64,000 nt of DNA from positions 1-64,000 of the forward strand of contig JACQDB010000077.1 in the NCBI GenBank assembly GCA_016201275.1, given 5' to 3'. The stretch is from Acidobacteriota bacterium (GTDB lineage: Bacteria > Acidobacteriota > Blastocatellia > UBA7656). The position numbers and the translations under genes were made by a program. Position 1 is the first letter of the stretch. Each line of letters begins with the position of its first letter. Positions 30,625 through 49,011 of this stretch are shown in pieces. The notes below the pieces were generated by a model, which was not told the DNA's origin, made no database searches, and saw nothing but the letters and a program-made list of their open reading frames with translations.

Positions 30625-32308
30625 ATGAAAAGAGTTTTTAGACAGATAAGTTATACCTTTGTGCTGCTGTCACTGGGTGTGGTATGGCTGGCGCTGCCGC
30701 GTGTAGACGCGCAAACGAGCGCCAGCGAAATCGTTTTATATGCCGCGACGGCAAGCGTCAAGGTAGGCAGTTTCAGCAGCGTCGCCGATAGTTCAGCCGC
30801 TGGCGGCGAGCGCCTCTATAATCCTGATGCCGGAGCCGCCAAGCTTGCCAACGCGCAGGCCAATCCAGCCAGCTATTTTGAGATGACCTTCAACGCCGAA
30901 GCCAACACCGCGTATCGTTTGTGGGTGCGAGCGAAAGCAGACAATAACTCGCCGTACAACGATTCGTTCTTCGTGCAATTTTCCAACCGATGACCGTCAA
31001 TCTGGAAGACTGTGCGGGTTGCGGCTTGTCGGGGTGGGGCTGGCAAGACAACGGCTGGGGCGTCGGGGTGTTGGGGCCGGTGATCTATTTTCAAACCAGC
31101 GGCACCCAGAGCTTGCGCGTGCAGGCCAGAGAAGACGGCTTCTCGATAGATCAAATCGTGTTGTCGCCGCAGACCTATTTGAACAGCGCGCCGGGGGCGG
31201 CGAAAAATGACGCGACGATTTTGGCCAGTACCGTGGGCGGAAGCGCGCCCAACCGCCGCAAGTGAGCGTCACCGCCTCGCCGAGTACGGGAGTGGCGACC
31301 TTGACAAGTTTCTTTACGGCGACGGCGACAGATGCCGATGGCTACATTGCCAGTTACAGTTGGGATTTCGGCGACGGCCAGAGCGCGGCGCAGATGTCGC
31401 CCAGCCATGCGTATGGGACGGCGGGCAGCTACACGGCGCGAGTGACCGTGACCGATAATCAAGGCGCGACCGCCACGGCTTCGACGCTCATCACGGTTAC
31501 CAACCCTGCGCCGCTGCCACCACCCGTGGGCGTGCAACTGCGCGTCGTCAGTTGGAACGCGCAATTCGGCAATGGCACTGATAACGCTTACGATTTGAAT
31601 CGGCAGGCGACGTATCTGGTCAATCAAGCGCCGGACATTGTTGGTATGTATGAAGTGGAACAGAGCGGCTCGAAAAATATGCCGCAGCAGTTGGCCGCAT
31701 TGATGACCCAGAAAACCGGCGTCACCTGGAATTATTACTGGGTGCCCAAGTTTGCCGGTTACACCGAAGGCAATTTTATTTTGACGAAGTGGCCGGTGGT
31801 CAGCACCAGCCATCTGTACCTGAGCTATCAACGCTCGGTGGCGCAGATGTCCGTCAACGTCAACGGCAAAGTAGTGAATTTCTTCACAACTCATCTTGAT
31901 GCCAATTCGTCAACTTATCGCCTTGCCGAGGTCAGCGAGTTGAAGAATTTTTTGGCAGGCTTTGCCGAACCGCGCATCATTGTTGGCGATTTCAATGCCG
32001 GTCCCGATTTGTCGGAGATCACGCAGATGACCGCCAATTACTTCGACTCGTGGAATGAAGCGATGAATGCCAGTACGGCGACCTCGTATCCCGATAATCC
32101 TGTGGTCTGGATGACGCGAACCCGTCGAGGCCGCATTGATTATATCTTCTATTCAAAAGGTGCGAGCAATCTGACGCTCAACAGCGCGGCCATTCCTGAT
32201 CTGCGCGACTTGAGCCGCACGCCTGTCGAGTTGATCGGCACGACCGATGATAAAGGCGTGCGACCTTCGGATCACAACATGGCGGTTGCGACGTTCCAAT
32301 TGCATTGA
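30625..32308 (+). pseudogene. Secreted module-PKD-endonuclease/phosphatase gene, twice frameshifted
   Basis: Three consecutive frames make one ancestral gene. Frame 1 (30625-30993) has a signal peptide (MKRVFRQISYTFVLLSLGVV...) and the first half of the module shared with the proteins at 32492 and 46537. Frame 2 (about 30990-31265) has the second half (TVNLEDCAGCGLSGWGW, EDGFSIDQIVLSP). Frame 3 (31262-32308) has a PKD domain (YSWDFGDGQS) and an endonuclease/exonuclease/phosphatase domain with SWNAQFG, YEVEQSG, GDFNAGPD and SDHNMAVATF. Compared with the paralogous module, about 49 nt are missing near 30979-30986; a second shift lies at about 31235-31250. The catalytic part is intact but would lack a signal peptide if translated alone. 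Confidence 0.85.
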
Positions 32309-32491: not shown

Positions 32492-35400
32492 TCAAGGCTT
32501 GGCGGCTTTGAAGGTATCAAAGAAAATCGTTCCCGGCGCGCTGGCCTCGGCTCTCCAGGTTCCGGCTTTTATTTCAAAGAGAACAGCAGCCAGAGGCACC
32601 GCCGTGGTATCCCATAATTGACTGGCGCGTTGCACCCAGGTTCCCGGCACGCCGCCGCTGCCCGGCGCGGTCTCGAACACCACATTGCCCGACGCCGCAT
32701 CGTGACGAATCCGCAGAAAGCGATGATTGACCGCATCAAACGGCACTGTCAACAAGTCCATCTTGGTGCCTTTGGCCTTCTTTTGACAGATTAAATTTCC
32801 CGCTTCGACATAGATGCGATAGTAATTGTTGGGGTCCTGACCGATGGTCAGCATGGCGTCAGCGGCGGTCGCCGCGTTGGGCGGCTGCACCAGTTCAACC
32901 GCCGCATACGCGCCCGTAAAGTTGTAACTCAAGGCTGAACGCAGGCCGTTATAGTGCGACCCCGAAGTGTTCTGCTTGAGCGCGCCAATCTCTAAATGCT
33001 GATTTTGATCACTCACCGCAACCCCGCTATCGGTATAACCGCTGAAGAGATTATTGAGTGACCACTTGGTGGTATCGAGCGTGTTGTTATTGAAGTCATC
33101 CACCAGCAAAAGAGTTTCTGCGGGGGTGGACGAGCCATAAGTAAAACCGTTGGTCAAGGTGGCGCTTTGCGAATCGGGATTGGTGACGGTGACATTGACC
33201 GCGCCTGCCGCGTGTGCCGGAGTGGTGGCGGTAATCGTCGTGCTGCCAACTACCGTGACATTGGTTGCCGGGAGGTTGTCAAAATTGACGGTTGCTCCTG
33301 AAACAAAACCCGTGCCGTTGATGGTGACGACAGTGCCGCCAGTGGTGGTGCCGTTGTTCGGCGCGAGACTGTTGATGAGGGGCGCGTTATTGTTCGTGGT
33401 GCTGAAAAATTCCGCCATATTTGCGGCGCTGGCTGAAGCGCCCGGAAACGCGGTCAAGCCCAAGCCTTCGGCAATCAGGCGCAGGGTGTTTTCATGTTGA
33501 TACAAAGTAGTGGATTGAAAATTCTGTTTGGCTTTCGGGCTGATGACCAGCATGGCCACCTGTCCGCCGCCGTGCGCCGTGTCGGTGTTGATGGATTCAT
33601 CGAACAAGATCACCAGCAAGCCATCTTGTTGAAAGACCGGGCTGGCAATCAACGGGTCAAGGTTGGTCTTCAACCAGTTGTCGGCGGTCGTCAATTTGTC
33701 ATTGTCGGTGCACGCAGGGTTGCTCGATGGGCAATCGTGTGCGTTGTCCAATTGATTCGGCTCGATGAACGAAAAGTTCGGCAACTGGAAGTTGGCCAGG
33801 TCGTTGGCGAATTGCGAAAACGGCACCAGATTATTGGTTTGCGCCGGACTGTTCAAGACATCGGATAAATAGGCAAACGGATTGTGCCGCTTGACGTAAG
33901 GATATTGGTCGCCGCCGGTGTAGCCTGTCGCTGGCAAACTCTCGGCATACGATTTCCAGGTTTTGCCCGCCGCGATCAACTGCCGCGTCAGATTATCAAC
34001 CGAGACCGTGCCGGTGAAATTCGAATCATTGGTTATGCCTTGCCCCGTGGTCAAATAGAAATAATTGCCTATGGACGGATGCGTGTCGGCAAAGTAGTTG
34101 GTCGCCAGGCCGTAGCGCGAAGCCAGCGTGTTCAAATAAGGCATGGCCGAATTGCCGATGACGTTCGAATAACTGTGATTCTCTTCGACGACCAGAATGA
34201 CGTGACCGAACGTGGGCAAGGGCGAAGCCGGATTGGTAAAAGTAAAACCGTTGGTCAAGGTGGCGCTTTGCGAATCGGGATTGGTGACGGTGACATTGAC
34301 TGCGCCTGCCGCGTGCGCCGGAGTCGTAGCGGTAATGGAAGTGGCGCTGTTGACCGTCACGCCGGTTGCCGCCACGCCGCCAAAGGTGACGGTTGCGCCG
34401 CCCACGAAATTGCTACCGGCAAGAGTCACCGAGGTGCCTCCGACCGTGCTGCCGGAATTGGGCGTGACGGAACTGAGGGTTGGCGCAGGCGCGGGAGGCG
34501 GCGCAGTGTAGGTGAAGCCATTAGTCAGAGTGGCGCTTTGATTATCAGGATTGGTGACGACTACGTTGACGACACCGGCGGCGTGTGCAGGAGTCGTCGC
34601 GGTTATGGTTGTGCTGTTGGCTACATTGATATTGCTTGCCGCCGTGCCGCCAAATGTGACGCTGGCTCCTGTGCCGAAATTCGTGCCGCTGATGGTGACG
34701 GAGGTGCCGCCAGTGCTGACATCAGAGTTTGGCGAAACGGCGCTCACGGTTGGCGCTGGCGCTGGCGGCGCGCCCGTCTTGGCGAGAATCGTGGTGTCAT
34801 TTTTCAGCGCTCCGGGAGCGCTGTTCAAATAGGTCTGCGGCGACAACAGAATTTGATCTATCGAGAAGCCATCTTCGCGTGGTTGTAGGCGTAGCGTGTG
34901 AGTACCGGCGTTTTGGAAATAGATGAGCGGCCCGAACACCCCGACGCCCCAGCCGTTGTCTTGCCAGCCCCACCCCGACAAGCCGCAGCCGGAGCAATCT
35001 TCCAGATTGACGGTCGTCGCGTTGGTCGTGCCTATGCGATAAGTGGCGGCGTTGGCCGTATCCACGCTGTCGGAAAATTGTACGAAGAACGAATCGTTGT
35101 ACGGCGAGTTGTTATCTGCTTTCGCTCGCACCCACAAACGATACGCGGTGTTGGCTTCGGCGTTGAAGGTCATCTCAAAATAGCTGGTCGGGCTGGCCAG
35201 CGCATTCGCCAGTTTCGGCGCTCCGGCATCGGGATTATAGATGCTTGCGCCGCCCGCTGCCGTGGGGTCTGAGACCACCGAGAAATTACCCACTTTGACC
35301 GCCGCTTCCGCAGCGTACAAGACCACATCGCTCGCCGTTGATGGGGACACAAAAGTAAAACCGTTGGTCAAGGTGGCGCTTTGCGAATCGGGATTGGTGA

Positions 35401-37789
35401 CGGTGACATTGACTGCGCCTGCCGCGTGTGCCGGAGTCGTAGCGGTAATGGAAGTGGCGCTGTTGACCGTCACGCCGGTTGCCGCCACGCCGCCAAAGGT
35501 GACGGTTGCGCCGCCCACGAAATTGCTACCGGCAAGAGTCACCGAAGTGCCTCCGACCGTGCTGCCGGAATTGGGCGTCACCGAACTGAGGGTTGGCGCG
35601 GTCGCAGAAGGCGGCGTGTACGTAAAGCCGCCGGTTAAAGTGACCGTTGGGCCTTGATAATTGGTCACCGCTACGTCCATCGCCCCGGCGCTATGCGAAG
35701 GGGTTCGGGCGGTAATCGTCGTAGGATTGATGACCGTGATAGTAGTGGCCAGCGTGCCGCCGATCTGGACGGTAGCACCGTAATTGAAATCGGTGCCGCT
35801 GAGGGTCACCAGAGTGCCGCCGGTCGTCAAACCGTTGTTCGGCGTAATTGCCGTAATCGTCGGCGGTGGCGGCGGTGCAACATATTGGAAAGAACTGGCT
35901 CGCGTGGCGCTTTGCAAATCGGGATTGGTGACCGTGATATCTACTCGCCCTTCGACGTGAGCGGGGCTTGTGGCAGTGATGGTATAGCCGCTGTTGGCGA
36001 CCACTACATCCATCGCCTGCTCGCCGCCTATGGTGACGGTAGCACCGGGAACGAAGCCCACGCCGCTGATGGTGACCGAGGTGCCGCCGCTAGGCGTGCC
36101 GCTTTCGGGAGAGATCAAATTCACCATAGGCGGCGCGGCAGTCGTAGCGCCTGTGAAGGTGAAGCCACTGCTCAACACGCCGCGTCCGCCATCGCTGTTG
36201 GTGACGATGACATCCGCCGCGCCCACCGCATGAGCCGGTGTAGTCGCAGAGATCGAAGTGCTGCTCAAGACGCTGACGTTGGTGGCCGGAATGCCGTCGA
36301 AACTGACGGTTGCGCCGTTGGTAAAACCTGTGCCGTTGATGGTGACGGCAGTGCCGCCATAGGTGCTGCCGGTGGCCGGTAAAATCGAAGTGACGGTAGG
36401 CGGACTGGCAGGCGGCGTTCCCGCCGCGACGGTGGTGAAACTGATGACCGGACTACTTGCCGTGCGGTTGGCCATGGTTTTGCCAACTACGCGCCAGTAA
36501 TAAGTTGTCCCCGGCGCGAGTCCCGAAACCGTAAAAGTTTCGGCGCTGCCTGGTCCCGGCGCGCCGGTCTGTACATCCGTAGCGATTAACGGTGGTGTGG
36601 CATTGGTGCCGAAATAAATGTCATATTTGTGCGCCCAATAACCGCCTTCCCAAGCCAACGTCAGCGTGGTCGGTTGCGCGTTTGCCGCGTTTGCCGGTGA
36701 CTGGTTGATAGGGGCATCCGGCGGCAAAGGCACGAAGGGTTCCATCTCGATGGCGGAATTCCATTTGCGCTCGAACTCGTTGACGAAGAACTGAAAGAAC
36801 CACGGCTTGGTGGTGAAATAATTATGCTCCTGCTGATAATTCGAGGAAGGCCCGGTCCAGTTTGACGAACCAAAAATGGTCAACCCCTGGCCGTATAACA
36901 GCACCGTCTTTTGATGATTCAATCCCAGATGCTTGCGATCTTTGATCTGCACACCGGCCATATACATTCGATCCACATTCCACGAATGCCACAAGCGCGC
37001 CGGGTCGCGGTACTGATCCGGCTCGGTCATCAAGCGCACCGGCTTGCCGCGATTGACCGCCGCAATCATGGCGTTGCTGAAATCCTGATTGGTGATGCGA
37101 TACATAATCGCGTCAATTTTCTGCGTCTCTTGATTGAGATGATAGACCGTGCGATTGCGAAAATCCTGCGAGCTGTCGGCGCTGGGCGGAAAATTCAACT
37201 CCGGATCAATCGGCGTGGTCGCATAGCTGCGCGTCAGAGGAGCGCTGATGTTGGCATAGTTGCCGTAAGAAACGGTGTCGGTCCACAGGTCATCGTATTT
37301 GGTTTTGAAACTGTTGACCACCGAGGGATCATCGCTGAAATAGATGACTTCATCCTGATAATTGGTATAAGGCGTGTATGGCTCGAACGCGGCGTTGTAG
37401 TTGGCGCTGCTGAATTCAACTTTGTTCTGGGCGGCGAAAATCATCACCTTGTTATGCAGGATGCCAGCGTTTAATTTGTAGCGCATGGGAATGCCTGCCG
37501 CCTGCAATTGATCGAGAATCTGTTGATTGCCTGAATAAATCGGATTGGCGCGGGGGTCAACGATGACGCGCACCTGCACCCCGGCGTTTTTGCGATTGAT
37601 TAATTTAGTCGCGTAAGAGGTGTCTTGCATGAACCAGAAAGCCACGTCAATTTGTTGCGTTTCCGCATCAATCAATTTCCATAAAGGGGTGCGGCAATCT
37701 TCAAATGAATTGTCGCAAAGCCGCTCCTGCGCTTGCGCGCCAAAAACCATAGAGAGAAAAAAACTGAGAAGAAGAAGAAGTTTTACCAT
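32492..37789 (-). CDS. Giant secreted multidomain protein: PLD-like, FN3, seven IPT/TIG, module, phosphoesterase
   Basis: About 1,765 residues from ATG 37789 (signal peptide VKLLLLLSFFLSMVFGAQAQ); the frame is open to an ATG at 37864 but neither start has a clear ribosome site. Numbering from 37864: PLD-like domain 50-375 with HNK at 137-139 and HQK at 317-319, FN3 about 380-478, IPT/TIG 1-4 about 489-840, unnamed carbohydrate-binding-like module about 847-1026, IPT/TIG 5-6 about 1037-1212, PF04185-like phosphoesterase about 1221-1488 (HVILVVEENHSYSNV, ADTHPSIGNYFYL, ILFDES), IPT/TIG 7 about 1495-1577, and a C-terminal lectin-like beta domain (DDFNNNTLDTTKW). The Asp of the canonical HxKxxxxD is absent from both PLD motifs. 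Probably a secreted phosphodiesterase that binds surfaces; substrate unknown. Confidence 0.9.
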   Translation of the reverse strand: MVKLLLLLSFFLSMVFGAQAQERLCDNSFEDCRTPLWKLIDAETQQIDVAFWFMQDTSYATKLINRKNAGVQVRVIVDPRANPIYSGNQQILDQLQAAGIPMRYKLNAGILHNKVMIFAAQNKVEFSSANYNAAFEPYTPYTNYQDEVIYFSDDPSVVNSFKTKYDDLWTDTVSYGNYANISAPLTRSYATTPIDPELNFPPSADSSQDFRNRTVYHLNQETQKIDAIMYRITNQDFSNAMIAAVNRGKPVRLMTEPDQYRDPARLWHSWNVDRMYMAGVQIKDRKHLGLNHQKTVLLYGQGLTIFGSSNWTGPSSNYQQEHNYFTTKPWFFQFFVNEFERKWNSAIEMEPFVPLPPDAPINQSPANAANAQPTTLTLAWEGGYWAHKYDIYFGTNATPPLIATDVQTGAPGPGSAETFTVSGLAPGTTYYWRVVGKTMANRTASSPVISFTTVAAGTPPASPPTVTSILPATGSTYGGTAVTINGTGFTNGATVSFDGIPATNVSVLSSTSISATTPAHAVGAADVIVTNSDGGRGVLSSGFTFTGATTAAPPMVNLISPESGTPSGGTSVTISGVGFVPGATVTIGGEQAMDVVVANSGYTITATSPAHVEGRVDITVTNPDLQSATRASSFQYVAPPPPPTITAITPNNGLTTGGTLVTLSGTDFNYGATVQIGGTLATTITVINPTTITARTPSHSAGAMDVAVTNYQGPTVTLTGGFTYTPPSATAPTLSSVTPNSGSTVGGTSVTLAGSNFVGGATVTFGGVAATGVTVNSATSITATTPAHAAGAVNVTVTNPDSQSATLTNGFTFVSPSTASDVVLYAAEAAVKVGNFSVVSDPTAAGGASIYNPDAGAPKLANALASPTSYFEMTFNAEANTAYRLWVRAKADNNSPYNDSFFVQFSDSVDTANAATYRIGTTNATTVNLEDCSGCGLSGWGWQDNGWGVGVFGPLIYFQNAGTHTLRLQPREDGFSIDQILLSPQTYLNSAPGALKNDTTILAKTGAPPAPAPTVSAVSPNSDVSTGGTSVTISGTNFGTGASVTFGGTAASNINVANSTTITATTPAHAAGVVNVVVTNPDNQSATLTNGFTYTAPPPAPAPTLSSVTPNSGSTVGGTSVTLAGSNFVGGATVTFGGVAATGVTVNSATSITATTPAHAAGAVNVTVTNPDSQSATLTNGFTFTNPASPLPTFGHVILVVEENHSYSNVIGNSAMPYLNTLASRYGLATNYFADTHPSIGNYFYLTTGQGITNDSNFTGTVSVDNLTRQLIAAGKTWKSYAESLPATGYTGGDQYPYVKRHNPFAYLSDVLNSPAQTNNLVPFSQFANDLANFQLPNFSFIEPNQLDNAHDCPSSNPACTDNDKLTTADNWLKTNLDPLIASPVFQQDGLLVILFDESINTDTAHGGGQVAMLVISPKAKQNFQSTTLYQHENTLRLIAEGLGLTAFPGASASAANMAEFFSTTNNNAPLINSLAPNNGTTTGGTVVTINGTGFVSGATVNFDNLPATNVTVVGSTTITATTPAHAAGAVNVTVTNPDSQSATLTNGFTYGSSTPAETLLLVDDFNNNTLDTTKWSLNNLFSGYTDSGVAVSDQNQHLEIGALKQNTSGSHYNGLRSALSYNFTGAYAAVELVQPPNAATAADAMLTIGQDPNNYYRIYVEAGNLICQKKAKGTKMDLLTVPFDAVNHRFLRIRHDAASGNVVFETAPGSGGVPGTWVQRASQLWDTTAVPLAAVLFEIKAGTWRAEASAPGTIFFDTFKAAKP
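34228..34483. repeat. Internal direct repeat (encodes IPT domain 6)
   Basis: This ~255-bp block is nearly identical, base for base, to 35346-35601 (IPT domain 4). The encoded domains are identical over about 85 residues. A third, shorter match lies at 33132-33230 (IPT 7). Confidence 0.85.
34790..35330. repeat. Module-coding segment, inverted copy of 30715-31200
   Basis: The segment encoding the shared module is, on the opposite strand, almost identical to the module part of the broken gene; for example the stretch encoding FEMTFNAEANTAYRLWVRAK differs at very few bases. The two copies are about 4 kb apart in inverted orientation. Confidence 0.8.
35346..35601. repeat. Internal direct repeat (encodes IPT domain 4)
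   Basis: Partner of the block at 34228-34483. Confidence 0.85.
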
Positions 37790-37864
37790 GAAATTTCGGC
37801 CAGGAGATTTCCCTTTTCGGTTTTCAACAACGCCAGAATTAACCCGCATAAATGCTCGCTCCAT

Positions 37865-38477: not shown

Positions 38478-39644
38478 TTATGAAACACGCAAATGAATTT
38501 GGTGAAGCAGTTCCAACTCCATCACTTCGTAAAGCGCTTTGACAGCGCGCACGGTGGCCGTGCCGGGTTGATAAAACAACTCTTGCGCGACGTGTTGGCG
38601 AGCGGACGATTTCTCTCGCGGCGCGGCGAACGCCTGTTCAACGGCGGCAAGGGTTTGCTCGACATTGCGGACGCTGCTGGCCGCCTCGGCCAGCAGCTGC
38701 ACATAGTCTTGATGAATGTTGGTGCGGGCAATCAACTCCGGCATCTCGATGCGAATTACCGGACGGTCTAGCAATAGATACTCGAAACCTACGGAACTGT
38801 GGTCGGTGATTAACACATCCGCTGCCGCCAGGTACGGACAGGCATCGCCGCTTTGTGCCAGATGGCCGCCGTATTTTTCCAGTATCGGTTTGATACGTTC
38901 GCGCCAATTCACCCCGCCAGAGTGTATGAATCGGGTGTCTTGTGAACGGTCATGCAGTTTGACGATGACGGCGTATCCGGCTTGGCACAAGCGCTCGATC
39001 AATTCCAGTCCCAACGCATTGACCGATGAATAAGGCGACCACGTCGGCGCATAAAGAACGGTTTGCCGCGCCGGATCAAAGCCGTATGACTCAAGCAGCG
39101 CCTTACGCGACAGCGAACCATCGAGCAGGCAATCCAGTTTGGGCATACCGATAAGTTGGGCGGCGGGGCTGTCGGCATCAATCGCGCCGCTGCGTAAGTA
39201 ATTATTCAAGCGGCGTTGATTGATGAAAAACAGGCGATGCCATTCGCGCATGGAACGCGCAGGCGTGTCATAAATGTGACCGTATTTTCCGGCGACGCCA
39301 TGAAACATCTGTATGCGCCGCGTGCCGCGTGGCAACTTCACCCACAATTGATCGGCGGTCAAATAGGCATCGAATTTCATGAGCGCGGCGCGTTGCGGCG
39401 TAATCAGGCGCGCCGCTGCACCGGCCTCGCGATAAATCGCGGTGCAGGCTTGCGGCATTTCGCTGGCGGTGAAATAAAACTGCACGCGATGGTCAGCGCG
39501 CATCATTCGATGAAGCGGCGCGACAATGGCGTAATTCATAGCGGTGCGCGAATCCACCAACACCGAGCGGTTTTCAGGGTGGCGATGGCGCTGCCATTTC
39601 GCATCCGTCTGTTGAGCGAATTTCAAAAGCGCGGCAAAACTCAT
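38478..39644 (-). CDS. CDP-glycerol glycerophosphotransferase-like (TagB/TagF family)
   Basis: 388 residues, GT-B-like. Family motifs: QMFHGVAGKYG (catalytic-region His), YAPTWSPYSS, VIVKLHDRS with its conserved His, and ADVLITDHSSVGFEYLLLD. Members transfer glycerol- or ribitol-phosphate from a CDP-linked donor to a glycan or lipid-linked acceptor. The LicC-like nucleotidyltransferase immediately upstream could make the CDP-linked donor. Last gene of the minus arm of the EPS locus. Distant members act on other phospho-alcohols, so the donor is inferred only. Confidence 0.88.
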   Translation of the reverse strand: MSFAALLKFAQQTDAKWQRHRHPENRSVLVDSRTAMNYAIVAPLHRMMRADHRVQFYFTASEMPQACTAIYREAGAAARLITPQRAALMKFDAYLTADQLWVKLPRGTRRIQMFHGVAGKYGHIYDTPARSMREWHRLFFINQRRLNNYLRSGAIDADSPAAQLIGMPKLDCLLDGSLSRKALLESYGFDPARQTVLYAPTWSPYSSVNALGLELIERLCQAGYAVIVKLHDRSQDTRFIHSGGVNWRERIKPILEKYGGHLAQSGDACPYLAAADVLITDHSSVGFEYLLLDRPVIRIEMPELIARTNIHQDYVQLLAEAASSVRNVEQTLAAVEQAFAAPREKSSARQHVAQELFYQPGTATVRAVKALYEVMELELLHQIHLRVS

Positions 39645-39699: not shown

Positions 39700-40488
39700 T
39701 CACGAAAAAAATTCTGCGGCTTGTGCTTGTCGGCTCAGAGGGCGCGGCGCGGTCGTTCGGCTATCAGCAGCGGGAAGCTTTGGCAGAATGTCGCGCACCG
39801 CACGCTGAAAATCTTCGGGAAAATCTATTTCAATCCACGGGTAGCCTTGCGCGTCAACGGCATACAGCGGACGCGCGGCGGCAAACTCGCAGAAGGCTCG
39901 CGGTGCCCAGTCGCGCTGTCCGCCGTTGGTAATCAAGCGCTGCATAATTTCTATCAACAGCGCTGCGCTGTTGGCATTGAATTTTACGATGCCGAGATTT
40001 TCGCCGTCGGCTTCCTGTGGCGGCATGGTTTTGCTGATCTCGATGACGCGCTCGCCGCGAACTTTTACTTTCATCTCTTCGTCGCCAAGCGCTGTGGACA
40101 AAGGATTGCCATAGTCAATCAACAAGGCATCGTGATAAGGCGCAGCCAAGAGATTCGCCAGCAATTGCGGGTGAAACAGCACGTCAGAGTTGAGGACGAC
40201 AAAGCCTTCGGCAAGTGCTTGACGCGCCAGCCACAACGAATAGAGGCTGTTGGTTTGGTCGAAGCGGGAATTTTCCACGAAGCGAATACGCCCGTCGCAA
40301 CTTTGGCGCACACGCTCGGCTTGATAGCCGACGACTACCACGATGTCGGTGATGCCGCAATTTCTCAAGGTGTGAATCTGGCGCTCCAGCAACGTGCCGC
40401 CGCCGATTTCCATCAGGCATTTCGGCGTGTTGCCGGTCGCCCCGTTCAAACGCAAACCTTTTCCGGCAGCCAGAACGATTCCCTTCAT
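39700..40488 (-). CDS. LicC/MobA-like nucleotidyltransferase
   Basis: 262 residues. The nucleotide-binding opening is MKGIVLAAGKGLRL with the signature Lys in TPKCLMEI. The segment ENSRFDQTNSLYSLWLARQA then FVVLNSDVLFHP is close to phosphocholine/phospho-alcohol cytidylyltransferases (LicC type) rather than RmlA. The C-terminal PWIEIDFPEDFQRAV fits the same group. Ribosome site AAGGAG is 8-9 nt before ATG 40488. It probably activates a small phospho-alcohol as its CDP derivative for the transferase downstream. Confidence 0.87.
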   Translation of the reverse strand: MKGIVLAAGKGLRLNGATGNTPKCLMEIGGGTLLERQIHTLRNCGITDIVVVVGYQAERVRQSCDGRIRFVENSRFDQTNSLYSLWLARQALAEGFVVLNSDVLFHPQLLANLLAAPYHDALLIDYGNPLSTALGDEEMKVKVRGERVIEISKTMPPQEADGENLGIVKFNANSAALLIEIMQRLITNGGQRDWAPRAFCEFAAARPLYAVDAQGYPWIEIDFPEDFQRAVRDILPKLPAADSRTTAPRPLSRQAQAAEFFS

Positions 40489-40735: not shown

Positions 40736-41746
40736 TTATTGACTTTCTGCGACGTTGGTTTTGGCCGACATCATCCGCGCTTTGCCTTTGCGATCTTTCC
40801 AGCGTTGACGCACGACACCGGCAAAAAACCATAGCTCCAGTTCGCGCTCGAAACGCGCTTCTATATCTTTGCTGGCGTAAGCCTTCAGCATACGCACGAA
40901 GGTGCCGAAATAGGTTCGCAGCATATAACGCGGCACTCCTGCGAGGTGCGGCACGTTGGCAAAATCGAGCGAGGTGTCTTCGGGGGATTCCATATTGATG
41001 CGCGCCTGTTCATAAAGCAGAGCGCGGCTGATGCCGTTCCAGTAAAACCAGCGGCGGAAATAGCGTTTGCTCAAACGCTCTTGCGGAATGATGTGTTGAA
41101 CCACCATCTGCGGCGCATAAAAACCGCGCAAGCCTGCCGCCTTGGCGCGCAAACCCCATTCGCGCACTTCCTGGCCGAGCAGCGTCCCGGCTTTGCGCCC
41201 GACGCGATTATCCCAAAGCCCTGCGCGAGTGAAACAGTCGCGGCGAAACGCCAGATTGACGCCCAGCGGCACATAGCGTTGATTGAATTCCAAAGGCGCT
41301 TCGCCGTGATCCAAAAGCGCTATCACTGACCACGGCCTGCCCGCGTGATTGGGCAACCAGGCAGGGCGCTCGCCGCCCCAGATCGGCAACACCTTGCCGC
41401 CAACGTAATCGCATTGATGTTGAGCGAGCGCCGAGGCTGCCTGATCCAGCCAATCCGGCGCAACCCGCACATCGTCATCCGTGGTCAAAATGATTTCTCC
41501 GTGCGCCGCCAGGATACCGCGATTGAGCGCCGCACAACGCCCCTGCTCTTGTTCAAACAGGTAGTGCAACTTGACTGGAAACCAGGTGGCGATGTCTTCG
41601 ACCACCGCGCGTGTGTCGTCCGTAGAGTTGTTGTCCACGACAATCACTTCCCAATCGCCCTGCGGCGTTAGCATAGCCATATTGCACAGCGTGCCGCGCA
41701 CCTCGTCAGCGCGATTATAGGTTGGAATAATGATCGAAAATTTCAT
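40736..41746 (-). CDS. Family 2 glycosyltransferase
   Basis: 336 residues. GT-A opening KFSIIIPTYNRADEVRGTL, nucleotide-sugar acidic motif LTTDDDVRVAP, and a later LLGQEVREWGLRAKAAG region. Its C-terminal half matches the GT2 at 28774 (see there), so they are paralogues placed in two glycan operons. AGGAG lies 9 nt before ATG 41746. Only 40 bp separates it from the sigma-like gene upstream, suggesting cotranscription. Confidence 0.92.
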   Translation of the reverse strand: MKFSIIIPTYNRADEVRGTLCNMAMLTPQGDWEVIVVDNNSTDDTRAVVEDIATWFPVKLHYLFEQEQGRCAALNRGILAAHGEIILTTDDDVRVAPDWLDQAASALAQHQCDYVGGKVLPIWGGERPAWLPNHAGRPWSVIALLDHGEAPLEFNQRYVPLGVNLAFRRDCFTRAGLWDNRVGRKAGTLLGQEVREWGLRAKAAGLRGFYAPQMVVQHIIPQERLSKRYFRRWFYWNGISRALLYEQARINMESPEDTSLDFANVPHLAGVPRYMLRTYFGTFVRMLKAYASKDIEARFERELELWFFAGVVRQRWKDRKGKARMMSAKTNVAESQ

Positions 41747-41785: not shown

Positions 41786-43033
41786 TCAATTGCCGGTCGT
41801 CGTTGCGACACGATATTTCAGCGGCGCGCAATAAAGCGGCGCTACGACGGGAAGCGCAAAGGCTTTCGGTGTTTCCGATTGGCGCGCCGCCTCTTTGTCG
41901 CGTACCACCATCTCGGAGATGCGCTTATCGAGAGCGCTGTTGAGATAGATATATTCATCAACGGTGAGCGTTTGTTGACGAGCGATGTGGTCAAAAATTT
42001 TGCGGTAATGACTGACCAGCGAATCCGATATGTTCATCAAGCGGGCGATGCTGGTTTGCGACGGCGCGGCGGGATTGAAATAACAATGCCAGACCACTTC
42101 GACGAGTTTGCGAAAGCGCTGCGGTTTGTGGCGGACGCTTTGCCGACAACTTTCCATAATGGTATCGGCGACCGCCTCCATGTGAGCAATGATCTCTTTT
42201 TCCAGCATGACCTCTTCGGGCGAGGGTTTGGTGTCGGCAAAATCCAGCTTGACGGGTTCCGACTCGGCGCTTGATTTTTCCAGCGTGTCATCCATAGAGA
42301 CCATCTGCGAATCTTCGATGGCCAGCTTTGACAACACCAATGAACGCATGGTGCGAATATCTGTGGGCGACTTGATGGTGCGGAAAATCTCGATGATGAG
42401 TTGCGTCAATTCGGGATTGGAAATCACCACTTGGGAACTGCTGCCGCGTCCGGCGCGGCGGGTGTCGCGTTTGCGAAAGGCCACTTCTTTCATCATCTCG
42501 TGCAGGTGTTGCGGCGCTTTGACGGGCATATCGGCAGGCCACTCGGCCAACCCGTAAACCTGCAGCGCCATCTTGCCGGTGGGGCGCGACGACGTAGCCG
42601 ATTTGGTCAACGCCGGGCGACTGTAGCAGCGAAACTCTTTTTTGGTCATCAGCAAATTGCTGGTGCGGCGCGCAATGCGATAGGACTCCGGGTGGCGCTC
42701 GCGCAGCAAGCGAGACACCAGATTGGGAACCTCTATGTCATAGAGTTCGTGTTCGACGCGCTCGTGGGTGTAGCCGACATTGATATAAAATTGCCAGCGG
42801 TCTTTCTCCTGCAATTTCAAATAGAGGTCTTGCGTTAAATCACAGCACATCTCTTTCAAACTTTCCCACGACAAATCTCTGGACGCGCCAAGCGAACGCA
42901 CGGCGCTGTGCCGCGACACGATGTGAAAGAGTTTCGACCATAAGGTTTCGGCGTCGCCTCTGCTAATAATATGTATCCAATCGTCGCTGTGATTTCTGAT
43001 CTGTGACTCCCACGGTTTCAGGACTGCAACCAT
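41786..43033 (-). CDS. Sigma-factor-like regulator, unrecognised family
   Basis: 415 residues, soluble. The N-terminal part (about 55-140: LKEMCCDLTQDLYLKLQEKD, VPNLVSRLLRERHPESYRIA) has the spacing of an ECF-type region 2 but no close match I can name. The middle (about 150-300) is charged and low in recognisable motifs. At 325-352, SQTSIARLMNISDSLVSHYR reads as a helix-turn-helix like sigma region 4. Ribosome site AGGAG before ATG 43033. It sits between the ATPase and the GT2 gene of the EPS arm, which suggests control of glycan genes. Function is inference; a non-sigma DNA-binding protein is equally possible. Confidence 0.75.
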   Translation of the reverse strand: MVAVLKPWESQIRNHSDDWIHIISRGDAETLWSKLFHIVSRHSAVRSLGASRDLSWESLKEMCCDLTQDLYLKLQEKDRWQFYINVGYTHERVEHELYDIEVPNLVSRLLRERHPESYRIARRTSNLLMTKKEFRCYSRPALTKSATSSRPTGKMALQVYGLAEWPADMPVKAPQHLHEMMKEVAFRKRDTRRAGRGSSSQVVISNPELTQLIIEIFRTIKSPTDIRTMRSLVLSKLAIEDSQMVSMDDTLEKSSAESEPVKLDFADTKPSPEEVMLEKEIIAHMEAVADTIMESCRQSVRHKPQRFRKLVEVVWHCYFNPAAPSQTSIARLMNISDSLVSHYRKIFDHIARQQTLTVDEYIYLNSALDKRISEMVVRDKEAARQSETPKAFALPVVAPLYCAPLKYRVATTTGN

Positions 43034-45901: not shown

Positions 45902-46536
45902 TTTCTAGGCAACCTCAATGCCGAACCGCCCAAATGATTGATGACTACATAATGAGATTGGCGCTTCGCATGATTAATGAGGACGATGATGATTGAATAA
46001 AACGAAAGTCACAGAAAATTAAGAAATTTTTTTTGGCGGTTTTCGTCTGCGGCAACGGCATTCACGGATAGCTGTAGGATATGCACACAGCCTAGCGGTA
46101 AGTAAGCATACACTTGGTTTGAAAATGTACAATTGACATACAGAACAAAATCCCAAATCCATTATGGAATCATAATAAGCGCATCAAGAAAGCAGACTGT
46201 TGACTTCACTATAGTCACTGCATAAGATGAAAACGCACTAAGCTACTAGCCTACATCCACCTCACGCGAAAATTGTTTACCTGATGATCACCGCCGTGAT
46301 TTTATGCGGGATTGGTTGGCGTGAGGTGTGGGTAGGAAAAGTTTTCAGCCGGATGCGAATCGGGCTGAAGGTCAAAGCGTTACTTGACCGGTGCCTCTGC
46401 TGGTGGTGGTCTCCACTACGTATTCTATGCCTCTAATTGATTAATCAAAGCCCTTACCAAGTAAGTGTCCTCTACTTATTTTTATGAGGACAGGTGTGTC
46501 TGGGATCAGACCACAAAACATTTTATAAGGACTGTC
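45902..46536. other. Divergent regulatory spacer of the EPS locus
   Basis: About 635 bp between the pseudokinase (minus) and beta-helix (plus) genes. It is AT-rich between about 45940 and 46260, consistent with promoters for both arms. I could not identify -35/-10 pairs or operators with confidence. No repeats of the A-D families occur here. Confidence 0.5.
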
Positions 46537-49011
46537 ATGATGAGTATTCGGTATTGGAAAATCAGTATTGCCCTCTTGCTTTTTATCGGCGGTTTCGCCA
46601 TCCACGCAGCCCCTGCCCAAACCTTGAATGAACCGGAGTTGCCGCGTCTGTTGCTCGACACCACTTATCAAGCGCCCACCGGCAATATCATCAATGTGGC
46701 CGCAGGCGGTAATTTTCAAGCGGCGCTCAATGCTGCAAATCCCGGCGACGTGATCGTGCTGCAGGCCGGAGCCACTTACACAGGCAATTTCACCCTGCCC
46801 TATAAAACCGGCAACGAATGGATTGTCATACGCTCGTCTGCCGAAAACGATTTGCCAGCGGCGAACACTCGCGTGCAGCCAACGCACAGCACGGCCCTGC
46901 CCAAGCTCGTCAGCGCCAATGCCGCAGCCGTCATCGCCACAGCAAACGCGGCGCATCATTATCGCTTCATAGGCATTGAGTTCGGCCTCAAATCCGGCGT
47001 CAATCTCAATTATGGATTGGTGGTTTTCGGCAGCAGCAGCCAGAACACGCTGGCACAGGTTCCGCACGATTTGATTCTCGACCGCTGTTATATACACGGC
47101 AATGCGACGGGCGATGTGTCACGCGGTGTGGCCATGAATTGCGCTCGCGCTGCGGTGATGGATTCTTATATCGCCAACATTCACGGCGTCGGTTTCGATA
47201 CCCAGGCCATCGCCGCCTGGAACGCGCCGGGGCCGCTCAAAATCGTCAATAACTATCTGGAAGGCGCGGGTGAAAATATTATGTTCGGCGGTGCTGACCC
47301 GAAGCTTTACGGTCTGGTGATTTCGGATGTGGAAATCCGCCGCAATCATTTGTCCAAACCCTTATCGTGGAATCCGCGTGACCCCAGCTATGCCGGCATT
47401 CATTGGTCGGTGAAGAATATTTTTGAACTCAAAAACGCCCAGCGCATATTGGTTGAAGGCAATCTGTTCGAGTACAACTGGATGGATGGACAAAACGGCA
47501 CGGCGATTTTATTCACGCCGCGCAATCAAGAAGGTACTGCGCCGTGGAGTACGGTTCAGGATGTCACCTTCACCAATAACATCGTGCGCCACACTGCCGC
47601 CGGGGTCAATTTTTTAGGCACCGATTATAACTTTCCGAGCCAGCGCTTGCAGCGCATCAAGGTGAAAAACAATCTCTTTGTTGACGTAGGCAATCCGAGT
47701 TATGGAACCAACAACGTGTTGTTTTATGTCTTGAATGGCACCACCAATATCACCCTTGATCACAACACCGCTTTTCAATCCGGCAATGTCATCAGCGCCG
47801 ATGGACAAGCGCACACCGGCTTCGTTTATACCAACAACCTGACGCCGCATAATACCTACGGCGTAATCGGTTCGGGCAGCGGCCCCGGCAAAGCATCCCT
47901 CAATGTCTATTTTCCGAATTGCGTGTTTCTCAACAACATCCTGACGGGCGGTTCCGCGTCGGTGTATCCGAAAAATAATTTCTTCCCGTCAACGCTGGAT
48001 GCGGTGGGCTTTGTGGATCGCGCCGCTGAAAATTATCGGCTGGCCATTACCAGTCTGTATCACAATGCCGGAACCGATAGCCAAGACATAGGCGCAGACT
48101 TGGACGCCATCGCAGCGGCTATGAGTATCGCGGCCACGCCGCCACCACCGCCGCTGAATCAACCGCCCGTGGTCACTGCCAACGTGTCGGCGTTGGCGGG
48201 CATTGCGCCGCTGGCGCTGTCGTTCGCTTGCACCGCCAGCGACCCGGATGGCGCGATTGTCTCTTACCTTTGGGATTTCGGCGATGCTCAAACCGCCGCC
48301 ACTGCCGCCGCTTCGCACACCTATCAAAATGCCGGAAACTTCACCGCGCAAATCACCGTTACCGATAACGCCGGAGCGACGGCAAGCGCTTCTGTAACCA
48401 TCAATGTTACAAATCCGGTAGCGCCGCCGCCGCCGCCAACAGCCGATGTGGTGTTGTATGCCGCCGAGAGCGTTGTCAAAGTTGGCAACTGGCAAGTCGT
48501 AGCAGACCCGACCGCCGCCGGAGGCTCACGGTTGCGAAATCCCGATCAGCGCGGCAAGAAGCTCAGTCAGCCGCAAGCCACGCCTAGAGATTATTTTGAA
48601 GTGACCTTCAACGCCCAGGCCGGAGTGCCGTATCGCTTATGGGTGCGCGGCAAAGCGGATAACAATTCGCAGTACAACGATTCGTTCTATGTGCAATTCG
48701 ACGATAGCGTGACGGCAAATGGCGCGTCGGCTTTTCGCATCGGCACTACGGATGCGACGGTTATCAATCTGGAAGAATACTTGAATTACGGATTGAATGG
48801 CTGGGGCTGGCAGGACAATGGCTGGGGCATAAATGTGTTGGGGCCGTTCCTCTATTTTCAAACCAGCGGCACGCACACCTTACGCCTGCAACCGCGAGAA
48901 GACGGCTTCTCTATAGATCAGATCGTGTTGTCGCCGCTGAATTATTTACTGGTAGCGCCGGGCGGCTTGAAAAATGACAATCACATATTGCCGAAAAACA
49001 GCGGTAGGTAA
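46537..49011 (+). CDS. Secreted right-handed beta-helix protein with PKD and module domains
   Basis: 824 residues from ATG 46537 (ATAAGGA at 46524-46530). Signal peptide about 1-27 (FIGGFAIHAAPAQ). Parallel beta-helix about 40-520 with Asn-ladder turns such as DVEIRRNHLS, ILVEGNLFEYNW, VTFTNNIVRHT and ITLDHNTAFQSG, as in pectate-lyase-like folds. One PKD domain at about 550-640 (YLWDFGDAQT). The shared module is at about 650-815 (YRLWVRGKADNN, GWGWQDNGWGINV, DGFSIDQIVLSP). It may bind or cut the exopolysaccharide made by the locus; catalytic residues are not identifiable. Confidence 0.88.
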   Translation: MMSIRYWKISIALLLFIGGFAIHAAPAQTLNEPELPRLLLDTTYQAPTGNIINVAAGGNFQAALNAANPGDVIVLQAGATYTGNFTLPYKTGNEWIVIRSSAENDLPAANTRVQPTHSTALPKLVSANAAAVIATANAAHHYRFIGIEFGLKSGVNLNYGLVVFGSSSQNTLAQVPHDLILDRCYIHGNATGDVSRGVAMNCARAAVMDSYIANIHGVGFDTQAIAAWNAPGPLKIVNNYLEGAGENIMFGGADPKLYGLVISDVEIRRNHLSKPLSWNPRDPSYAGIHWSVKNIFELKNAQRILVEGNLFEYNWMDGQNGTAILFTPRNQEGTAPWSTVQDVTFTNNIVRHTAAGVNFLGTDYNFPSQRLQRIKVKNNLFVDVGNPSYGTNNVLFYVLNGTTNITLDHNTAFQSGNVISADGQAHTGFVYTNNLTPHNTYGVIGSGSGPGKASLNVYFPNCVFLNNILTGGSASVYPKNNFFPSTLDAVGFVDRAAENYRLAITSLYHNAGTDSQDIGADLDAIAAAMSIAATPPPPPLNQPPVVTANVSALAGIAPLALSFACTASDPDGAIVSYLWDFGDAQTAATAAASHTYQNAGNFTAQITVTDNAGATASASVTINVTNPVAPPPPPTADVVLYAAESVVKVGNWQVVADPTAAGGSRLRNPDQRGKKLSQPQATPRDYFEVTFNAQAGVPYRLWVRGKADNNSQYNDSFYVQFDDSVTANGASAFRIGTTDATVINLEEYLNYGLNGWGWQDNGWGINVLGPFLYFQTSGTHTLRLQPREDGFSIDQIVLSPLNYLLVAPGGLKNDNHILPKNSGR

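Follow-up and report, generated by a model that had tools for sequence, protein, structure and literature searches.

Extracellular breakdown of a phosphate-linked surface polymer is known from Bacillus subtilis, where the endo-acting PhoD and the exo-acting GlpQ degrade wall teichoic acid under phosphate starvation (PMC7086022). Gram-negative bacteria can also make polymers of this type, since TagF-like enzymes produce teichoic-acid-like capsules there (PMC5974469). In a window of 64,000 nucleotides from an Acidobacteriota bacterium, we analysed a gene for a large secreted protein that carries two phosphoesterase-type domains and lies beside a gene of the CDP-glycerol-glycerophosphotransferase-like family PF04464. 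Our tentative preference, which falls somewhat short of an even chance, is that it encodes an exported two-site phosphoesterase acting on the adjacent locus's own phosphodiester surface polymer.

The gene is on the minus strand, in one uninterrupted frame of 1,790 codons (32492-37864), and residues are numbered on this frame throughout. The start proposed in the first-pass annotation, at 37789, is Met26 of the frame, which remains open upstream to 37864; from there the gene (32492..37789) encodes the exported protein of 1,765 residues which that annotation had described, beginning with what is, by inspection, a typical signal peptide (MVKLLLLLSFFLSMVFGAQA; residues 26-45, 37730..37789). Inspection by eye revealed neither a sorting nor an anchor signal at the C-terminus, and the NCBIfam match named 'choice-of-anchor Z' stems from the TIG repeats of the protein.

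The signal peptide is followed by a PLD pair, an FN3 domain, TIG1 to TIG4, a carbohydrate-binding-module-like (CBM-like) module, TIG5 and TIG6, the PF04185 domain, TIG7 and a C-terminal module, all on the minus strand. Two PLDc_2 stretches, seven TIG domains (E 2.5e-95) and PF04185 score above the curated Pfam-A cut-offs, which rules out chance domain matches; of the domains originally listed, only FN3 (residues 386-480, 36425..36709) falls below, with a weak match (E 1.2e-4, 22.6 bits for a cut-off of 25), but it is conserved in relatives. The TIG domains were placed at 36155..36400 (TIG1), 35882..36130 (TIG2), 35618..35863 (TIG3), 35351..35596 (TIG4), 34508..34753 (TIG5), 34238..34483 (TIG6) and 33137..33382 (TIG7). 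At the DNA level TIG4 and TIG6 share 98% identity, against just 66% for the corresponding pair in a second genus, which points to a recent duplication or gene conversion within the gene.

Comparison with relatives indicates that the CBM-like module (residues 846-1035, 34760..35329) and the C-terminal module (residues 1585-1790, 32495..33112) are conserved domains. Neither is matched by a Pfam model, and their profiles retrieved from the PDB nothing for the former and nothing credible for the latter, which stays unclassified. What holds of the first reading of module 846-1035 is thus a domain, the term 'carbohydrate-binding' deriving from its appearance alone. We regard this module as a candidate new binding-domain family. 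It is common to three secreted proteins of the window (34760-35329, 30700-31200 and 46465-49011), and is found in many relatives too.

The PLD module (residues 45-378, 36731..37732) matches PLDc_2 with an E-value of 7.3e-31 (107.2 bits for a cut-off of 27). In an alignment of 13 sequences, H137/K139/N155 in the first half and H317/K319/S334/N335 in the second are invariant. The Asp of the HKD motif is replaced in both halves (Ala in the first, Tyr in the second), at a position that varies within the family; GSxN is kept in half 2, and half 1 has SSAN. With the HxK(x)4D(x)6GSxN signature incomplete, membership rests on profile and fold, and the module is a diverged member of the PLD superfamily, not a classical HKD enzyme. 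Structure prediction bears out the fold assigned in the first-pass annotation: the AlphaFold model built with eight sequences has a pLDDT of 71.9 and a pTM of 0.75, and phospholipases D rank best among its Foldseek matches (first 7e0m, E 1.4e-14), with phosphatidylserine synthase also among them.

The sequence profile leads elsewhere. Against the PDB it retrieves the Nuc endonuclease, Zucchini/PLD6 and NucT, so that the nearest sequence relatives are nucleases, and NCBIfam NucT models match below their cut-off. Accordingly, one rival explanation is a nucleic-acid scavenger, in which the PLD module would be an extracellular nuclease and the PF04185 domain a nucleotidase or phosphatase, together gaining phosphate from matrix DNA or RNA. 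The net charge of the PLD module (-5) argues against it, as nucleases of this group have basic grooves (PMC5714352). Overall we consider this scenario rather unlikely, and nevertheless the main competitor; further evidence on it comes from the neighbouring genes and from relatives, below.

The PF04185 phosphoesterase domain (residues 1216-1470, 33455..34219) is matched with an E-value of 7.8e-23 (81.6 bits for a cut-off of 23). Across 16 PF04185 sequences, E1228/N1229, S1264, H1327, H1376 and D1422/E1423 are invariant. The sequence profile matches AcpA (2d1g, E 3.9e-14) and phospholipases C, and this match supports a PF04185 fold; for the expected alkaline-phosphatase-like fold of the domain, a single-sequence AlphaFold model reached a pLDDT of only 39.9. 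The active site of NPC4 comprises E23, N24, T158, H264, D299 and E300 (PMC9837106), and its counterparts here are the Glu-Asn, Ser, His and Asp-Glu positions. The general acid of NPC4 (D76/H79) lies in a segment of 134 residues, the equivalent of N1229-S1264 (PMC9837106). Here N1229 and S1264 are 35 residues apart, and the general-acid segment of NPC4 and AcpA is missing. The aligned relatives also have the short form, which marks a compact PF04185 subfamily, whose chemistry need not equal that of NPC4.

Together, the two domains could be read as a secreted phospholipase pair, PLD-like and PLC- or phosphatase-like, that attacks the lipids of dead cells or competitors. The best fold matches of one domain and the phospholipase C profile matches of the other fit such a role, but the protein carries no recognised lipid-binding module, its linked genes are polysaccharide genes, and the PLD halves resemble nucleases in sequence; we consider it improbable. 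Somewhat more improbable still is a chiefly structural role, as a matrix protein or adhesin that has lost catalysis in one or both enzyme domains: the numerous binding-type repeats and the two HKD motifs devoid of Asp would be accommodated, but the PLD His, Lys and Asn residues and the metal and nucleophile residues of PF04185 would then hardly be expected to be invariant across diverged relatives.

The fusion itself is not peculiar to one assembly. The same 12 modules, in unchanged order, make up a 1,793-aa protein of another genus in the family (genome G009), with 87% identity in the PLD module and 78% in PF04185, so that the domain order put forward in the first-pass annotation goes beyond chance, and an assembly artefact is ruled out. 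In a third genus (G508), two separate secreted proteins are encoded on different contigs: a PLD half of 1,406 aa (PLD-FN3-TIG2-CBM-TIG4-C-module) and a PF04185 half of 804 aa (CBM-PF04185-TIG-C-module). Such domains, joined in one chain in some species and encoded apart in others while keeping their accessory modules (the Rosetta stone situation), point to a shared pathway. The split and fused genomes also form a natural pair ready for experimental comparison. In further relatives PLD and FN3 are constant, the rest being variable (BACON, Big_7, DUF1349, CBM-like, TIG). One of them (L053:7032-11729) has a purple-acid-phosphatase-type metallophosphoesterase in the place of PF04185, and in another acidobacterium an S1/P1 nuclease is fused to a PF04185 phosphoesterase (L025:1321-3153). 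This recurrent pairing of a diesterase with a monoesterase supports a two-step logic. The PLD head was present in 4 of 396 sampled genomes of the phylum, a scan of genome contigs returned seven loci, all in Acidobacteria bins, and a search of plasmids as carriers gave no match.

The fused gene is flanked on its PLD side by the PF04464 gene (38478..39644, minus strand) and on its PF04185 side by a convergent gene for a secreted CBM-PKD-EEP (PF03372) protein (30625..32308, plus strand). The frame of the latter shifts twice, at about 30985 and 31245, and is uninterrupted in three other genomes (G009, at L050:12059-13834, G482 and G508), which suggests either a degraded copy in the window or draft-sequence errors. 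The EEP superfamily includes DNases, and S1/P1 is a nuclease. For the nucleic-acid scavenger, the adjoining EEP protein would be a DNase-I-like partner and the S1/P1-PF04185 fusion a further indication; with the nuclease-like PLD head, they keep nucleic acid among the plausible substrates.

Beyond PF04464 come a MobA-like nucleotidyltransferase gene (39700..40488) and a GT2 glycosyltransferase gene (40736..41746), both on the minus strand, and ABC exporter genes belong to the same locus. The surroundings form an XrtA/PEP-CTERM-type exopolysaccharide locus, in agreement with the glycan setting noted at the outset. The PF04464 cluster also contains, at 41786-43033 (minus strand), a gene for a 415-aa protein, collinear in G009 with 64% identity, for which Pfam and NCBIfam searches gave no match.

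G009 is collinear with the window on both flanks of the fused gene. In G508, PF04464, the nucleotidyltransferase and GT2 are still found next to the PLD gene, and the convergent gene for the secreted EEP protein next to the one for the detached PF04185 half. Counting the window genome, PF04464 is found near a PLD gene in five genomes, of which two belong to other families: G482, where it is divergent to the PLD gene at a contig end, and G269, where the PLD is about 33% identical. It is single-copy in the window genome, G009, G508 and G269. The PLD head and this PF04464 subfamily occur in the same 4 of the 396 phylum genomes; among 162 genomes of the class, all five PF04464 carriers have the PLD head, which seven genomes carry. 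Hypergeometric probabilities are about 1e-9 (phylum) and 2e-8 (class), values that ignore phylogeny. Inside the family, three genomes have both genes and four have neither. The association is not strict: both genes are present but unlinked in G348 and on separate short contigs in G483, while G478 and G484 have a PLD gene and no PF04464 match at threshold, and G482 has extra PLD copies with no PF04464 nearby. PLD genes lacking a PF04464 neighbour (G348, G478, the extra G482 copies) imply that the polymer cannot be the exclusive substrate across all members.

The substrates first listed (surface glycan, lipid, DNA) can thereby be narrowed. Given the PF04464 linkage, the polymer of the locus itself is the leading candidate, with extracellular DNA as its main rival; a nucleic-acid scavenger would leave both linkage and co-occurrence unexplained. 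Coupling to a polymer locus could also suit a phosphotransferase, the PLD module then serving to transfer or ligate polymer as it is assembled and not to degrade it, given that some enzymes of the PLD fold, phosphatidylserine synthase among them, are transferases. Direct evidence for this role is lacking, however, and a free secreted enzyme with a phosphatase-like partner domain looks hydrolytic, so that we hold it to be very improbable.

In the two-site phosphoesterase that we tentatively prefer, the two Nuc/NucT-like halves of the PLD module would build one site, cutting phosphodiester bonds via a phosphohistidine intermediate. The PF04185 domain, with its AcpA- or phospholipase C-type site and a putative Ser nucleophile, would next strip the exposed phosphomonoesters. 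The TIG domains may space the other modules apart; retention in the extracellular matrix may be the role of the CBM-like and C-terminal modules. The substrate would be a phosphodiester surface polymer from the adjacent PF04464, nucleotidyltransferase, GT2 and ABC exporter locus, which would be trimmed or have its phosphate recycled. In favour of this model we count the two enzyme domains well above their Pfam cut-offs and their invariant active-site residues, the module order kept in a second genus, the split homologues of G508, the linkage and co-occurrence with PF04464, and the recurrent pairing of diesterase and monoesterase; against it, the missing Asp of both HKD motifs, the PF04185 domain lacking the NPC4/AcpA general-acid segment, the PLD genes with no PF04464 nearby, and the nucleases as nearest PLD sequences in the PDB.

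A more specific proposal, which we regard as possible but less probable than the general one, is an extracellular enzyme dedicated to remodelling a teichoic-acid-like phosphodiester polymer in soil Acidobacteriota, diesterase and phosphatase being carried on one chain beside the polymerase, and the PLD family being an undescribed, polymer-specific one. Gene linkage rather than annotation is the source of this hypothesis on what the secreted PLD family and the compact PF04185 domain act on. It also suggests the synthesis and remodelling of phosphate-linked surface polymers by some Acidobacteriota, which would matter for phosphorus cycling in soil and for the biology of the matrix.

Every part of the protein comes from known families; the combination is new. 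The literature searched contained nothing direct on this architecture or on PLD-type teichoicases, and neither the conserved fusion nor the association of these PLD genes with PF04464 was found there, in keeping with the first-pass statement that no described protein with this order is known; the sole other copy found is that of the related genus. Among PLDc_2 (PF13091) enzymes, Nuc, NucT, Zucchini/PLD6 and the Serratia PLD 7e0m share the two HxK...N halves, and both the fold and the profile match them, but here both HKD Asp residues are replaced, and a single chain carries the two halves together with a long stretch of extracellular repeats. The PF04185 domain has the EN...S...H...DE active-site set in common with AcpA (2d1g), NPC4 and bacterial phospholipases C; in contrast to AcpA and NPC4, where about 130 residues separate the equivalents of N1229 and S1264, it has 35, and it is fused to a PLD module. 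With the Gram-negative teichoic-acid-like capsule loci (PMC5974469), this locus shares a PF04464-type gene, a nucleotidyltransferase, glycosyltransferases and ABC export, whereas its XrtA/PEP-CTERM-type exopolysaccharide region and a secreted phosphoesterase of this architecture set it apart. Finally, the proposed role would resemble that of the GlpQ and PhoD teichoicases (PMC7086022), namely extracellular breakdown of a phosphodiester polymer for turnover or phosphate. The fused protein has no Pfam match to a GDPD or PhoD domain, and the enzyme families are unrelated, so that the likeness to the Gram-positive teichoicases would be one of function only.
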